A stretch of 64,000 bases of DNA from Variovorax sp. CAN15 (lineage in GTDB: Bacteria > Pseudomonadota > Gammaproteobacteria > Burkholderiales > Burkholderiaceae_C), in contig NZ_JASMRZ010000014.1 of assembly GCF_030462475.1 (NCBI RefSeq), positions 40,671 to 104,670 of the forward strand, in the 5' to 3' direction. Under the pieces are notes generated by a model. The model saw only the letters and a program-made list of their open reading frames with translations, was not told the origin of the DNA and searched no databases. This document shows, in pieces, positions 43,051 through 58,891 of this stretch (its first letter is position 1; the number at the start of each line of letters is the position of its first letter). A program made the translations under genes and the position numbers.

Positions 43051-43263
43051 CGTTGGCACTTTAGGCGAGGCCTTCGCGCGCCCCGCCAACCCAACCGCAA
43101 AACTGCAGCTTGCGTGAGAAATTCCTGGCCGATCGATACTGGTCCACAAAGTCGACACATGCCTGCGTCGCCAACGGATCACTCCGGCGAACGACTGCCA
43201 CAAGGCAATGGGGCGGAGACACCATAGGCATCACCGCCGCGGCCAGCAGTCAGAAGGCGGCCG

Positions 43264-45199: not shown

Positions 45200-45324
45200 G
45201 GAATTTCTCCTGGGTTGTAGAAGGTCAGCAGCTCCTCGCTGCTGAGGGGTCTACACGCCAGGGAGAGGTTTGGATGCAGGGGGGCGAAGTTTTCTTAGGC
45301 GCTCGTCTTTTATCGAATCCGAGT

Positions 45325-45516
45325 CGGATCGTGAAATACGAGCAGTCGATTGACGATAGACAACAGTGTTTTCAGCGACGCCCACGTACAACGCGCCGTC
45401 ATCTATCCGAAGCGTATCGAATGAAACAAGGAAATTTCGTGAGCGGCGATCCGCCGAGCAACGGAGGCCGGGCGTTGCCCTGTCAGACATCAATCGCACT
45501 GATCAAGGGAGCGTAA
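45325..45516 (+). pseudogene. Conserved leader plus truncated PAAR N-terminus (ORF 45421-45516)
   Basis: TTGACGATAGACAACAGTGTT at 45350-45370, 50 nt later ATG of MKQGNFVSGDPPSNGGRALPCQTSIALIKGA*; homologous to 58222-58400. Confidence 0.65.
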
Positions 45517-45518
45517 AG

Positions 45519-46073
45519 ATGGGAGAGATACTTTCAATCATCAGGCTGGGCGACAGGACTACGCACGGCGGGACAGTGGCCGAAGCATTCCCGATCGGAA
45601 GAGCAGACGTCTATGAAATCCCCGCGGCAGGGCTCGGCCACTTGACCATTTGCCCTCTCCATCCGGGACCACATCGCATAGCAGAAGGTGTTTCTTCGTA
45701 CACGGTTGACGGCATTCCTGTTGCCGTCGAGGGCATGCTTACCACTTGTGGAGCGGCATTGATTCCTTCGCAGCACACCGCGAGAGTTGAACGAGTCAGC
45801 ACAGCGGTCATCGCAGACTCGGATGAATTCCATCAAGATCATGCGGGCTACTGGCACTCGGGTCCCGCCCCCAAGATTCCTCACGACGAGCAATTCGTCT
45901 TGCTGGACATGAAGTCAGCAAGGCCTCTGGCCAACATGACCTACCAAATCAAGACCGAGTCGGGTGAGATCATTTCCGGCGTGACCGATTCAGAGGGAAA
46001 AACTCAACGCGTCACGACCACATTGCCAGAGCAACTTGTGTTCAGCATCGTTCATCAAGGCGTCAAGCAATGA
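45519..46073 (+). CDS. PAAR-like protein with C-terminal extension (T6SS spike-tip candidate)
   Basis: MGEILSIIRLGDRTTHGGTVAEAFP...GIPVAVEGMLTTCGAALIPSQH; C-terminal SARPLANMTYQIKTESGEIISGVTDSEGKTQRV. Confidence 0.75.
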   Translation: MGEILSIIRLGDRTTHGGTVAEAFPIGRADVYEIPAAGLGHLTICPLHPGPHRIAEGVSSYTVDGIPVAVEGMLTTCGAALIPSQHTARVERVSTAVIADSDEFHQDHAGYWHSGPAPKIPHDEQFVLLDMKSARPLANMTYQIKTESGEIISGVTDSEGKTQRVTTTLPEQLVFSIVHQGVKQ

Positions 46074-47005
46074 CTGAACAAGTTGCCGCAGTCGGCACGG
46101 GCGCCACAAACCAGACACCCGGCTCCACAGTTGTTGTATCGGTCGCCGATCTCACACTCGCATGGGAGATCCAGAGCAACACAATCAACAACGACAAGTT
46201 GCCGATCATCCCGACGGCGTCGCGGGTTCAGAGCGGCCAGATCCTTTACCGTTTGAAGATCAAGGCCACGGTAACCAGCATCGGCAGGAACGCGCCCGAG
46301 GCCGGGCACGCATTGACCGTCTCGAGCGACAGAGGGGGTGACACCATCAGGACCTCCTCTGCTGCGACAGATGCTGCAGGCACCGTGATCGTGACCTTGG
46401 AGAGCCGAGAAAAAGGAAAACTCAAACTGTCGATCTCGGAGAGGGACGTCACCTTTGTTCCGCTAGAGATCACTTTGTCGGATGCCTGGTATGAAAGTCC
46501 CTTCCTGCTGACGGGCTACAACGTCTGCAACGAGTCCGATTTCAACGGAGCAATGGTCACGGCGAACGGACTTTCAAATCAGCATCGCGATGACTTTCTC
46601 TTCGGCGCCAGAGGCGTCGTGATGCAGGGCACAGGAATGGCTCTCAATGGTCAGTACGTTCGGCCAACTCGTGTCGGTTCGACATGGGCAACAAATTCCC
46701 GGGGCCATCCAACCCGAATGGCAAACCCTGGAGGCGTCACGTTTGCCTACACGGCCGGAGTCCATGGCGCTTTTGGAGCAGTCACGGCGGGGCGGTCAAT
46801 TGCGGTGGACCCCAGAGTTATCCCACCCCACGGGAAGGTAGAGATCGACTCTATCGGCACGCGATATGCGGACGATCGCGGAAGCAGAATTCGGGACTAT
46901 CACATCGACAACTTCCTAGGTGCTGGAAACAGCGTGGTGCAAGCATGGCAAGCGAGCGGTTTCAACAGCACCCAACGCAAGGTCAAATTCATAGGAGGCC
47001 TCTAA
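46070..47005 (+). CDS. Candidate T6SS effector: Ig-like N-region plus C-terminal 3D (MltA-type) domain
   Basis: GAVTAGRSIAVDPRVIPPHGKVEIDSIGTRYADDRGSRIRDYHIDNFLGAGNSVVQAW; ATGA overlap with PAAR gene. Confidence 0.7.
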   Translation: MTEQVAAVGTGATNQTPGSTVVVSVADLTLAWEIQSNTINNDKLPIIPTASRVQSGQILYRLKIKATVTSIGRNAPEAGHALTVSSDRGGDTIRTSSAATDAAGTVIVTLESREKGKLKLSISERDVTFVPLEITLSDAWYESPFLLTGYNVCNESDFNGAMVTANGLSNQHRDDFLFGARGVVMQGTGMALNGQYVRPTRVGSTWATNSRGHPTRMANPGGVTFAYTAGVHGAFGAVTAGRSIAVDPRVIPPHGKVEIDSIGTRYADDRGSRIRDYHIDNFLGAGNSVVQAWQASGFNSTQRKVKFIGGL

Positions 47006-47008
47006 CCC

Positions 47009-47419
47009 ATGAAACCACGATACGGCTCAATGCTCATCGCGCTCGGCGCACTTCTCTCGGCCGCACCGGCAGCTTGGGCCGACGGCACTGTCAGTTTCGA
47101 GCAGGACGTGCTGCCCATGATCAAGGTCAGGCCGGAGTTCGAAAAATTCCTGCTCGGGACACTCAAGGTCACCGATGCCGGATCAGGTACGCGCATCTCC
47201 GAACAGGCAATGCCTCACCTCGGTGGCGCTCGCATGGGGCCCTACGAGTTCAGAGCGACTTGGCGCAGTTCCAACGGCGACGTTCCGGTCACGCTCATCA
47301 TCGACACCAACACCAAATTTTTCGACAGGGCTGGTCGGGAGATCAGGAACGGCAGCCTGAAGAAGGCAGTCAGCGTGAAAGAAACGTTCGACTCCATCGA
47401 GATCGAGCAACCTCGTTGA
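47009..47419 (+). CDS. Exported small protein, candidate periplasmic immunity protein
   Basis: Signal peptide MKPRYGSMLIALGALLSAAPAAWA; begins 3 nt after the effector stop. Confidence 0.6.
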   Translation: MKPRYGSMLIALGALLSAAPAAWADGTVSFEQDVLPMIKVRPEFEKFLLGTLKVTDAGSGTRISEQAMPHLGGARMGPYEFRATWRSSNGDVPVTLIIDTNTKFFDRAGREIRNGSLKKAVSVKETFDSIEIEQPR

Positions 47420-47432
47420 GCACCGCAGCCGC

Positions 47433-47903
47433 ATGAAATACCTCAACGCCATCATCCCTCTTGCCTGCGCCCTGGTGCCCACGTGGACCCTCGCTTGCTC
47501 ATTCGGCGGCCTCGAACACGACGTTCAGTTCGCCCCCGCAAGCACAAATCTCGAATCGCAGCAGGTCGTCTCGCTGACGAACTGGTTTGTCGAGCAGCAG
47601 AACCCGAAAAGGGCGACCGGAGGCATCTACCGTGCCGACATCCATGCAAGCGCCATCAAGGACGATGCCGCTTCGTTGAAGAAAGCGAACCTCCGGCTTG
47701 CCGAGATCGCCGATCTGTTGAAAACCTTGAGCACCACGGCCTCCGTCGAAGTGCAAGGGCACATCGATGAGTTCGAAAGCCAGGCGATAAGGCACCCGGA
47801 GCGTCTGGATGTTCTGAACGCAACCGTTCAACCCGCGTGCGCCAAAACAGTCTCGTGCTGCAAATGGTCAGAAGGATCTGCAGCGCCGCCCAAGCAGCAG
47901 TAA
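47433..47903 (+). CDS. Exported OmpA-like small protein (paralogue A)
   Basis: Signal peptide ending TLACS; VQFAPASTNLESQQVVSLTNWFVEQ...ANLRLAEIADLLKTL. Confidence 0.55.
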   Translation: MKYLNAIIPLACALVPTWTLACSFGGLEHDVQFAPASTNLESQQVVSLTNWFVEQQNPKRATGGIYRADIHASAIKDDAASLKKANLRLAEIADLLKTLSTTASVEVQGHIDEFESQAIRHPERLDVLNATVQPACAKTVSCCKWSEGSAAPPKQQ

Positions 47904-47907
47904 GCCG

Positions 47908-48375
47908 ATGCACCGACGAATTCTCTGGGCTTTGGCCGCCATCCTCGCTGCGGGGCAAGCAACAGCATGCAGCTACATCGTGGCAACTCAGATCAGCTTT
48001 GAGAGCGGCTCTGCGGATCTGGACCGATCGCAGATCATCAAGCTCTCGGAGTGGCTGAACCGTTCCTACGCAGTCTTTCCCACGTACACGGGCGCAGGAG
48101 TAGAAACCGGGGCTTTCGGAGCCGTTCCCAGCGAGGCCAAGGCGTTGGCTGAACTGCGTGCGGCCAACACAGTGAGAGCGCTGCGCGTGTTGCTGCGCGC
48201 CGACCTTCCTGTGGAGACGCACTCCCAGGCATACCGCTCTCCAAAGAGCCCATTCGGTGAGAGCAACGATTTCGCTTCAATTCACCTCTATCCCGACGTT
48301 GAGGGACTGACGCTACTGAACTGCCGTCCGGCCCCAGCCCCGACGCCGAGCGTTGACGCAAAGGCCTCACCGTGA
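47908..48375 (+). CDS. Exported OmpA-like small protein (paralogue B)
   Basis: Signal peptide ending TACS; ISFESGSADLDRSQIIKLSEWLNRS...AELRAANTVRALRVLL. Confidence 0.6.
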   Translation: MHRRILWALAAILAAGQATACSYIVATQISFESGSADLDRSQIIKLSEWLNRSYAVFPTYTGAGVETGAFGAVPSEAKALAELRAANTVRALRVLLRADLPVETHSQAYRSPKSPFGESNDFASIHLYPDVEGLTLLNCRPAPAPTPSVDAKASP

Positions 48376-48686
48376 ACAACCATCGGCGCAACGTGCTTGG
48401 ATGCCTGAGCGTGCTGGCATGGTTCCTGACGATGCCGGCTGTATTCGTAGCCGTTGGGGCCTTGGACCAGCGCAAGTTCCAGTCGATCTCTGACAACATC
48501 GCGCCGATCATCGCCACGATTCTCTTTGCGTGGGCGATCTGGATTTACTGGCGCTTCGTTCCGGGCGCTCCCCGGATCTGGCAGCGAATCGGCTATCTGG
48601 CTGCTTTCCTGATGGGGATATGTCTGCTGGGGGTGAGCGCAATGTGGGTGACCTTCTGGGTCATGATGGCGATCCACGGTGCTTAG
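48372..48686 (+). CDS. Small multi-TM membrane protein, unknown
   Basis: Three hydrophobic segments; overlaps previous stop by 4 nt. Confidence 0.6.
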   Translation: MNNHRRNVLGCLSVLAWFLTMPAVFVAVGALDQRKFQSISDNIAPIIATILFAWAIWIYWRFVPGAPRIWQRIGYLAAFLMGICLLGVSAMWVTFWVMMAIHGA

Positions 48687-51494: not shown

Positions 51495-51649
51495 GAGAGG
51501 CCTCCCAAGGGATTTTGGTTTGCTACAACCGCCGCCCCCGCTTCCAAACGATGGCGGCAGCTCGAACAGGTTGGAAGACCGGAAAACCCCTTGAAGAGAA
51601 ACCGGCAGGGCTCGCGCCCTCCCGTTCGAGCCGCCTAAAAAAGCAGCGC

Positions 51650-51760: not shown

Positions 51761-51880
51761 GTACGGCAAACTAATCGACACTCCAATGCCAAGCCCGATC
51801 CGGGCACGTCCCGAGCCCATATATTGCCGAGCAATACGACGCAGATAATCTCTGCAAGCGCAGAAAACATAAGGACCATT

Positions 51881-53197
51881 ATGAGAATTGACTCGATACG
51901 GCTGGTGAACTATCGATGCCACCAAGACCTTCCAGTGGACTTTTCTCCTGGATTCAACGTTCTCGTGGGGGCCAACGGGAGCGGGAAGACTACGATCCTG
52001 AAAGGTCTTCGTGACTGCTTGGGAGGACTCACGATGTACTTCAATCTAAGGCGTGGTCAATCAAATCCACTCTTGGACCCCGGAGACGCAAGAGTGAGCA
52101 TTGCAGAGGTTAAAAAACGTCGGCGCTTTGAGCCCTGCTATCCCATTGAGTTGATTGCGACGGGACAGGCTTTCGGCACTCCAATCGAATGGTCATGGAA
52201 GAAGGCTGGCTCCATTGAACCTCCTCTGATTTCGGGAAATCCCCCCGGACCACTCTGGGTATCACAGCGCCAGCTCCCGAACTCGAGCGATGAGACGCTT
52301 AGCAAAACATTGCCGATTGCAGTGTTTTATGGTGCGAATCGCAGATGGCTACAAGAAGCACCGAGTGAGTTAGAAGCTGCAACGGAGCGTCACGCAAGAG
52401 CAGACGGATACGAGAGATGGTGGGAAGCCTCCCTAGATTCGTCGGCTTTGGCAGGATGGATGATCTCCAAGAGCCTAGAGCGCCTTCAAACAGCAGCCGA
52501 GTTGAGGCACTCGTTTAATGAAGTCTTCGATGACGAACTAGGCCTAGTCAACTCAGCATTGGCAGGTGCTGTCGAAGGCCTAAAAGGCATTCGATATGAC
52601 ATGAAACAACGAGGGCTTCTTGTTGAGTGGGACGAAGGTCTATCCAAAGAACGCGCCCCTACGCTGTATGAGAACCTGAGTGATGGTCAGCGCTCCGTGA
52701 TCTCTCTTGTTGCAGACATCGCTCGCCGAATGTGCCTTCTAAACCCACACCTTGGTCAAAGTGTGCTGAGAGATTCACCAGGCGTAGTGTTGATCGACGA
52801 GCTCGATATGCACTTGCATCCCAAGTGGCAACGGATGATCACCAATGGGCTGAAGGCCGCTTTCCCCGCTGTCCAGTTCATCGTCGCGAGTCATTCGCCG
52901 CAGGTACTTGGAGAGCTCATGCCAAATGAGATTATCTTGCTCAGCCCCAACGGCATCACGCACCCCAAGGTCAGCTATGGAGTTGATTCGAGCCGCGTTC
53001 TTGAGGAAATCATGGGGGCTTCTGCTCGCCCCCCAATCATTGAAGAAAAGCTATCCGAATTATTTGCTGCCTTGGAAAGGAATCAGCTGGAGCTAGCACG
53101 GGAGAAACTCAAAGCACTACAAAAAGAAGCTCCAGGTCTCGCGGAGCTTGCTGGTGCAACTGCGTTGCTAAAGAGGAAGGAGATCATTGGGAAATGA
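51881..53197 (+). CDS. ptuA: Septu-like PtuA ATPase (AAA, RecF/SMC-like)
   Basis: IRLVNYRCHQDLPVDFSPGFNVLVGANGSGKTTILKGL; YENLSDGQRSVISLVADIA; GVVLIDELDMHLHPKWQ; IVASHSPQVL; paired with HNH gene. Confidence 0.8.
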   Translation: MRIDSIRLVNYRCHQDLPVDFSPGFNVLVGANGSGKTTILKGLRDCLGGLTMYFNLRRGQSNPLLDPGDARVSIAEVKKRRRFEPCYPIELIATGQAFGTPIEWSWKKAGSIEPPLISGNPPGPLWVSQRQLPNSSDETLSKTLPIAVFYGANRRWLQEAPSELEAATERHARADGYERWWEASLDSSALAGWMISKSLERLQTAAELRHSFNEVFDDELGLVNSALAGAVEGLKGIRYDMKQRGLLVEWDEGLSKERAPTLYENLSDGQRSVISLVADIARRMCLLNPHLGQSVLRDSPGVVLIDELDMHLHPKWQRMITNGLKAAFPAVQFIVASHSPQVLGELMPNEIILLSPNGITHPKVSYGVDSSRVLEEIMGASARPPIIEEKLSELFAALERNQLELAREKLKALQKEAPGLAELAGATALLKRKEIIGK

Positions 53198-53841
53198 GAT
53201 ACGTGAACAAGAAATCCGCTCCTGAACTTTTTCAGCAATGGATGGAGCTTGAGAACGAAGACTGGCAACCGAGCTACGGTGACCTGCAGAATCCTCAAAA
53301 GCACGCCCTGCACGAATCGCTTCTATCCGAGCAAGGTTGGACTTGCTGCTACTGTGGGCAATCAATCGACTTCGACAGCAGTCACATTGAACACTTTCGC
53401 CCACAGGAAAGCCACGAGAATTTGGCTCTGCACTACGGGAATCTCTTCGTTTCCTGTGGAAGAAAATTCGAAGTGACAACGCCATCGCACTGCGGGCATG
53501 CCAAGAGCAATCAGTTCGACGAGCACCTGCACATATCGCCGCTGGACCAGACATGTGAAACTAGATTCCTCTATACGCTAGACGGGCAAATCTGCGCAAA
53601 CGATCCTGCTGACGCAGGCGCGGACTACATGACTAGCTTGCTCAAACTAGACATCCCATTCCTGCGCAATCGACGTGAGGAAGTAATCAAAAGAGTTTTC
53701 GATGAAGACTTTATGAGCACCGCGACAAACGAGTCCTTGCTGGAGTTGAGCCGAGCCTTTCGCGCGCTAGACAAAGAAGGTAGAGCAGACGATCTAGGGC
53801 ATGTTGTTGCGCGCTTCGCAGAGCAACAGGCGACAGGATGA
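53194..53841 (+). CDS. ptuB: Septu-like PtuB HNH nuclease (TIGR02646-like)
   Basis: GWTCCYCGQSIDFDSSHIEHFRPQESHENLALHYGNLFVSCGRK...HCGHAKSN; 4-nt overlap with ptuA. Confidence 0.8.
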   Translation: MRYVNKKSAPELFQQWMELENEDWQPSYGDLQNPQKHALHESLLSEQGWTCCYCGQSIDFDSSHIEHFRPQESHENLALHYGNLFVSCGRKFEVTTPSHCGHAKSNQFDEHLHISPLDQTCETRFLYTLDGQICANDPADAGADYMTSLLKLDIPFLRNRREEVIKRVFDEDFMSTATNESLLELSRAFRALDKEGRADDLGHVVARFAEQQATG

Positions 53842-58221: not shown

Positions 58222-58336
58222 CGCCGAGTCGTGATCCGTGCTTTTCGTGAGAAATTTCTGAGCGTTTGACGATAGACAACAGTGTTAGCGCGCTCGGCCT
58301 CATACAACGCCTCGTCACAAGACGGGAGCGTATTGA
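58222..58336 (+). promoter_or_regulatory. Second copy of PAAR-associated leader
   Basis: TTGACGATAGACAACAGTGTT at 58266-58286, 50 nt before ATG 58337, same spacing as 45350-45421. Confidence 0.65.
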
Positions 58337-58891
58337 ATGGAACGAAAAATTCTCGTGGTCGGAGATCCGCCCATGCCTGGCGGCCGGGTGCTGCCCTATG
58401 ACGGGCCCTTGCTCGATCTATTTCTGCGCATTCTGGCTCTCGCCCTTGCAATGCTCAGCCCGGTCGCCGCGCTCGCATGCAGCCCTATCAAGGTCTTCTA
58501 TGTGTACTTCGAGCGCGACTCGGCGACGGTATCTCCCGATCAGATACTGAAGCTTGACGCCTGGATGCAGGAGCTTCGAACGCGGTACGCCAACCACGAA
58601 GCGATCTATATCGGAGCATCAGTCAACCCGGAAGAACGAGACCACGATCCCAAAGGCCTGGGCCTGGACCGGGCACGCAACGTGGCTCTCGTTCTTCGAG
58701 AAGAACTGCGCTTCAATGCCAGGATCGCCCTTCCCAAGAGCGGCTACGTCGCCGACCCTGCGTCCCTTTCAAACGGACCCGCCGAAGACTCACGAGTTCT
58801 TGGAGTGCAGCTCGACTTCCTGCCGGCTTGCCCGCATGAATGCACCTGCCAGTTGGGCGATCCGCTCCATACGCAGCAGACTCCTCGCTGA
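58337..58891 (+). CDS. Chimeric ORF: PAAR-type N-terminus fused to signal peptide-like segment and OmpA-like domain (paralogue C)
   Basis: MERKILVVGDPPMPGGRVLPYDGPLLDL + FLRILALALAMLSPVAALACS + VYFERDSATVSPDQILKLDAWMQ...LDRARNVALVLRE. Confidence 0.65.
   Translation: MERKILVVGDPPMPGGRVLPYDGPLLDLFLRILALALAMLSPVAALACSPIKVFYVYFERDSATVSPDQILKLDAWMQELRTRYANHEAIYIGASVNPEERDHDPKGLGLDRARNVALVLREELRFNARIALPKSGYVADPASLSNGPAEDSRVLGVQLDFLPACPHECTCQLGDPLHTQQTPR

Follow-up and report, generated by a model that had tools for sequence, protein, structure and literature searches.

In Vibrio cholerae, effectors of the type VI secretion system (T6SS) were sequentially displaced and arrays of immunity genes were left behind, and homologous recombination has been invoked (PMC5361080). 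Rhs toxin/immunity cassettes are exchanged via a conserved 5' part, with orphan immunity genes found downstream (PMC10539506). Among metallopeptidases, the M35 toxin VgrG2b of Pseudomonas aeruginosa, which has the immunity partner PA0261, is delivered by the T6SS and acts in the periplasm (PMC6899460, PMC10673891), and PAAR-associated M35-like peptidase toxins are listed as a toxin class in a survey (PMC8651086).

The Variovorax loci described here have in common with V. cholerae that a new module displaces an old effector and that the old immunity genes stay downstream as orphans. However, displacement in V. cholerae concerns the 3' region of T6SS clusters, whereas a conserved noncoding leader forms the left edge in Variovorax, where the toxin has often been cut out in situ without loss of the reading frame; the words "leader", "promoter" and "frame" do not occur in the text of the V. 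cholerae report (PMC5361080). The conserved part of the Rhs cassettes is a large coding region, in contrast to the ~110-nt noncoding leader and few codons of Variovorax (PMC10539506). Like VgrG2b/PA0261, the putative Variovorax pair combines an M35 metallopeptidase with a presumed dedicated immunity gene, but its M35 domain is fused to PAAR instead of VgrG. The leader, the immunity family and the excision pattern seen in Variovorax were not found in the available portion of the survey (PMC8651086). Effector displacement with orphan immunity is thus known, and the genus-specific leader with frame-preserving excision is new; a non-exhaustive search of the open-access literature found no report of the Variovorax case or of frame-preserving excision under a shared leader.

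The window, which is the whole 64-kb stretch of Variovorax sp. CAN15 DNA analysed here, carries this leader at locus A (45.3 kb) and locus B (58.3 kb). The best explanation, to which we assign a probability of about 0.8, is that the leader is the native head of PAAR-M35/immunity operons, with the toxin excised at locus B and another module recombined in at locus A. The leader would serve a Variovorax family of two-gene operons as native 5' region (probable promoter and untranslated region); in these operons, a PAAR-M35 metallopeptidase, the presumed type VI effector, precedes a secreted OmpA-like immunity protein, and translation of the immunity gene would be coupled to that of the upstream ORF. 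A deletion of ~930 bp at 58.3 kb would have excised the toxin and left the immunity gene fused in frame behind the leader, the start codon and 27 PAAR codons; the frame is kept, and the immunity protein could therefore still be made. At 45.3 kb, recombination would have placed a different module, consisting of a 31-codon PAAR-like ORF, a PAAR gene, a 3D effector and its own immunity gene, with the leader 21-mer on one side of it and a pair of orphan M35 immunity genes on the other. Homology, synteny, junctions, overlaps, frame statistics and the lack of the leader in the genomes sampled beyond the genus were observed directly; toxicity, immunity function, coupling and promoter activity are inferred.

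The leader and its distribution in Variovorax

A first-pass annotation of this DNA had pointed to a 21-mer, TTGACGATAGACAACAGTGTT, with identical copies at 45350-45370 (+) and 58266-58286 (+), each followed after exactly 50 nt by an ATG (45421 and 58337), and to an alignment running without gaps into the coding start. These observations were all reproduced, the two leaders aligning ungapped from the 21-mer through the ATG. The shared part measures ~110 nt, however, and not the ~175 bp that had been claimed. The leaders of locus A (45311-45420, +) and locus B (58227-58336, +) were placed by leader alignment, the latter together with 29 other leaders, and score 71.5 and 72.2 bits, respectively, with a leader model (R1) of 110 positions, which was trained on 30 leaders and used at a threshold of E≤1e-3. 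Allowing up to three mismatches, no further 21-mer was found in the window or in shuffled sequences, and the genome (6.9 Mb) holds exactly two copies; a mobile or abundant repeat was accordingly rejected. A third, eroded leader at 43099-43162 (+; 21.8 bits, E=6.8e-6 in the window), absent from the first-pass annotation, was detected with the model, whose matches in this genome are effector loci or remnants only, plus one weak match. The Shine-Dalgarno sequence, GGGAG in relatives, is changed to CGAAG in the locus A leader.

In a search of 100 relatives, the 21-mer with no more than two mismatches was confined to the genus, to which V. guangxiensis DSM 27352 (G049) and Variovorax sp. Root473 (G032) also belong. 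At L005, L007, L009 and L010, an ATG 50-51 nt past the 21-mer starts a protein whose first residues read MERKILVVGDPP or similar. Three-mismatch matches in L004, L006 and L011 do not fall at such loci and are near chance level; two of them precede one and the same other gene. Because 30 leaders trained the model, a pattern search is less prone to bias: the degenerate core pattern TTGACNNNNGNCNACAGTGT gave 21 matches in 102 genus genomes versus one for the reversed control, and by context the 21 are PAAR-M35 loci, what is left of such loci, or the PAAR-3D locus in the window. The model gave 42 matches at threshold, 34 of them heading PAAR genes or PAAR-derived remnants, and these two counts support the PAAR association proposed for the 21-mer. 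Contexts read by eye comprised 19 intact PAAR-M35 loci, one frameshifted copy, 12 PAAR-M35 remnants, two PAAR-3D modules, five LysM-family loci, two ORFs without assignment and the eroded copy of the window. In a 301-genome sample of the family, strong scores were confined to this genome and one other Variovorax, and no leader above 18.7 bits, taken as noise, was found outside the genus. About half of the PAAR-M35 copies have a different upstream region, from which the 21-mer is absent. Leader-like sequence was also observed ahead of similar short ORFs at L206 (1915-2002), L208 (4259-4350) and L212 (1611-1703), the short ORF of L212 having no Pfam match.

The leader also stands ahead of LysM-domain proteins in G137 (two), G029 and, weakly, G140, at four of the 20 LysM loci scanned. 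LysM proteins with a secreted partner were observed under the leader at L204, L205, L209, L214-L216 and L228. Such pairs probably constitute another toxin-immunity family. Very long LysM ORFs in G105 and G048 were rejected as stop-to-stop artefacts. Between the two leader loci of the window lies a two-gene Septu (PtuA/PtuB) anti-phage defence system (51875-53841, +; PADLOC E=3.7e-158 and 2.1e-76), with a C4 antisense RNA (RF01695, 55.4 bits) at 51550-51641 (-) just upstream of it.

The intact operon and the two loci of the window

The L009 and L005 proteins are fusions of an N-terminal PAAR domain (PF05488; 27.2 and 27.0 bits, cut-off 27) with an Aspzincin M35 domain (PF14521; 38 and 41 bits, cut-off 30), and the HExxH residues H283, E284 and H287 are invariant in the alignment (A3). 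The L007 copy is frameshifted. Matches to the PAAR-M35 protein occur in 32 of the 102 genus genomes, some as fragments only; an intact copy is present elsewhere in this genome (contig C44), and V. guangxiensis (L013) has an intact leader, PAAR-M35 gene and immunity gene in the syntenic position. Its domains make the PAAR-M35 protein a putative type VI effector; TssB is encoded by three genes in this genome and is present in 83 of the 102 genus genomes. Behind the toxin lies a gene whose product looks secreted; the family of this product gave weak OmpA matches, one exceeding the Pfam cut-off. The member in the window is predicted to adopt an OmpA-C fold (pLDDT 77.6), with OmpA-like domains as the best PDB matches (E ~2e-4), and its N-terminus is hydrophobic and signal-like, ending in AC. 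Together, the N-terminus and the modelled fold suggest a periplasmic OmpA-like protein, presumed from the position of its gene to confer immunity. In most intact operons, the toxin stop and the immunity start share 4 or 11 nt, and in two the immunity gene begins 8 nt downstream; because of this overlap or close succession, its translation is apparently coupled to that of the upstream ORF.

At locus B, a single ORF (58337-58891, +) is an in-frame fusion of a PAAR remnant with the OmpA-like secreted protein, the presumed M35 immunity, as judged by homology and the predicted OmpA-C fold. The remnant (58337-58417, +; 27 codons, MERKILVVGDPPMPGGRVLPYDGPLLD) belongs to an N-terminus that shares 80% identity with the first 35 aa of the intact PAAR-M35 protein of V. 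guangxiensis (E ~1e-12), and the OmpA-like part, from residue 29, is 94% identical to the product of the gene directly behind the intact L013 effector. Relative to L013, where the same neighbour genes flank the intact leader, toxin and immunity gene, 929 bp are absent; at the junction, 58417, PAAR codon 27 runs in frame into the beginning of the immunity signal segment. The first-pass annotation had described the N-termini at both loci as scars, which is correct at 58.3 kb, and had overlooked the toxin deletion, the in-frame fusion and their recurrence across the genus. No M35 domain was matched in the copies at 58.3 and 45.4 kb, and PAAR is incomplete in both, with 27 and ~21 codons. In G010, an independent deletion at the same locus joins the leader to the immunity gene, and PAAR codons are absent. 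With so long an N-terminal extension, the fusion protein might fail to be exported. Against V. guangxiensis, the immunity domain of locus B shows dN 0.020 and dS 0.205 (neighbouring gene, 0.014 and 0.169), that is, a dN/dS of 0.10 versus 0.08, a pairwise value also compatible with a recent deletion and later neutrality. The domain has thus been under purifying selection relative to V. guangxiensis, which does not date the deletion.

At locus A, the leader is followed by a 31-codon ORF (45421-45516, +) derived from or resembling a PAAR N-terminus, a PAAR gene (45519-46073, +; PF05488, E=1e-16) and a gene for a 3D-domain protein, a probable cell-wall-hydrolase effector (46070-47005, +; PF06725, E=1.2e-7, above cut-off). 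Behind these lie the presumed immunity gene to the 3D effector (47009-47419, +), which is part of a block homologous to Variovorax G123:C44 and is an orphan in V. guangxiensis, and two orphan M35-type immunity genes (47433-47903 and 47908-48375, both +), 62% and 61% identical, respectively, to a gene behind and the gene directly behind an intact PAAR-M35 gene (L015). The same array holds a small membrane protein (48372-48686, +), a similar protein being found directly under a leader in G016. The short ORF is indeed followed by a separate PAAR gene, as had been noted, at a spacing of 2 nt instead of 3; the PAAR likeness of the ORF is carried by a GDPP..GGR..LP motif and the position after the leader, and the sequence, too short, gave no Pfam match. 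The ORF is not a recent local scar. An ORF of equal length, aligning without gaps, precedes the same PAAR-3D gene under the leader in another species (G123:C44, L203), and the head therefore came with the module. The short ORF shows 16, 16 and 17 differences by codon position; coding constraint is absent, and a functional peptide was rejected on the lack of codon-position bias.

The segment 45509-47420 is homologous to G123:C44 as a single block (75%). In V. guangxiensis, the 3D effector is absent, and homologues of the genes at 47009, 47433 and 47908 are kept behind a PAAR-M35 operon. Identity to V. guangxiensis ends 4 nt past copy A of the 21-mer and resumes inside the gene at 47009, climbing from 0.83 to 0.96 near 47300; dS is 0.61 for this gene and 0.037 and 0.025 for the next two. 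The leader was therefore a recombination edge, in line with the recombination anchor that had been suggested. With homologous edges at the leader on the left and within 47009-47419 on the right, and with the genes at 47433 and 47908 matching those of the intact L015 pair, locus A reads as an exchanged cassette and an instance of effector displacement. In the V. guangxiensis array, an inverted immunity-like gene (L012, 6460-6894, -) was observed between two leaders.

Recurrent toxin loss and the reading frame

Deletions that removed the toxin and left the leader and the immunity gene were tabulated, and were taken as independent because their junction points differ. Nine of the 11 keep the frame, versus one third expected (binomial P=0.0014), and eight of 10 do so when the LysM case is omitted (P=0.0034). 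Six are in-frame fusions: locus B of the window, C13 (this genome and V. guangxiensis), G123:C244, G107:C5, G138/G110, which is present in two species, and G007:C86, which belongs to the LysM family. In three others, the native stop/start overlap is preserved (G110:296431, G029 and G055:C23), and two are out of frame (G117 and G010). The copies disabled by frameshift (G007:C24, G109 and G101), in which the downstream genes are retained, were excluded from the count, a frameshift being out of frame by definition, as were G016, G130 and the first G049 copy, where the native junction is not known or the locus has decayed. Since G117 and G010 are out of frame and the frameshifted copies keep their downstream genes, coupling is not strictly required.

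The C13 fusion, shared by this genome (L064, G000:C13) and V. guangxiensis (L062, G049:C13), lies under another leader class, with TACAAG and without the 21-mer. At L201 (3849-3951), the deletion junction falls at a shared 5-bp GATGA, which suggests microhomology-mediated excision in that case.

Alternative readings and biological meaning

What does the leader itself do? The 21-bp block is its most strongly conserved noncoding part, and some relatives' copies hold a perfect dyad, e.g. TGACACTG-N5-CAGTGTCA, which is degenerate at locus B. Neither leader has an Rfam match to a known structured RNA, and RNAalifold found no covariation over the whole leader alignment. The Shine-Dalgarno sequence was paired in 38 of 43 single-sequence folds of leader copies, and its hairpin has a mean z of -1.36 versus -0.16 for the upstream control (P=0.0004), without a significant difference from the 21-mer region (P=0.35). 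In these predictions, the Shine-Dalgarno sequence thus likely lies within a hairpin, and a regulatory role of the leader, the tag suggested in the first-pass annotation, is plausible from its sequence. The leader may mainly be a regulatory box, whose 21-bp element binds a transcription factor co-regulating orphan effector operons, and we would put the odds of this near even. The conservation and dyads fit such a box, as does the presence of the leader at LysM-protein operons and a PAAR-3D module, but around half of the PAAR-M35 loci have an upstream region lacking the element, the model matches in the genome reveal no wider regulon, and a sigma-70 promoter consensus was not found at locus B. 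This reading is compatible with the native-head explanation, and the two are not mutually exclusive.

The fusions and short ORFs could instead be functionless pseudogene debris, which we consider unlikely. The 45.4-kb ORF, devoid of coding constraint and of its Shine-Dalgarno sequence, would suit this account, as would the clear decay at several other loci (G130, the first G049 copy); the excess of frame-preserving deletions, the persistence of the G138/G110 fusion in two species and the low dN/dS of the locus B immunity domain argue against it. Far less probable still is a recent local duplication independent of cargo. Two identical 21-mers 13 kb apart would be expected from such an event, but the flanks are unlike, the two leaders have their orthologues at different V. 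guangxiensis loci (L012 and L013), and many species share the conserved element. The explanation by a native operon head, excision at locus B and recombination at locus A is hence preferred.

A broader proposal, which we hold tentatively and at somewhat less than even odds, is that a genus-specific standard leader heads unrelated toxin-immunity operons and that selection repeatedly yields "shield-only" operons via frame-preserving excision, since the immunity gene downstream relies on translation that begins at the toxin start codon. If true, Variovorax would possess immunity proteins whose N-terminus comes from a toxin. Orphan immunity genes are a common finding, yet the persistence of their expression after toxin loss is rarely visible. 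With 11 toxin-loss deletions and the intact operons available in one genus, the idea that operon coupling dictates disarmament with protection becomes testable, and the leader provides a search handle for unannotated Variovorax toxin-immunity operons.
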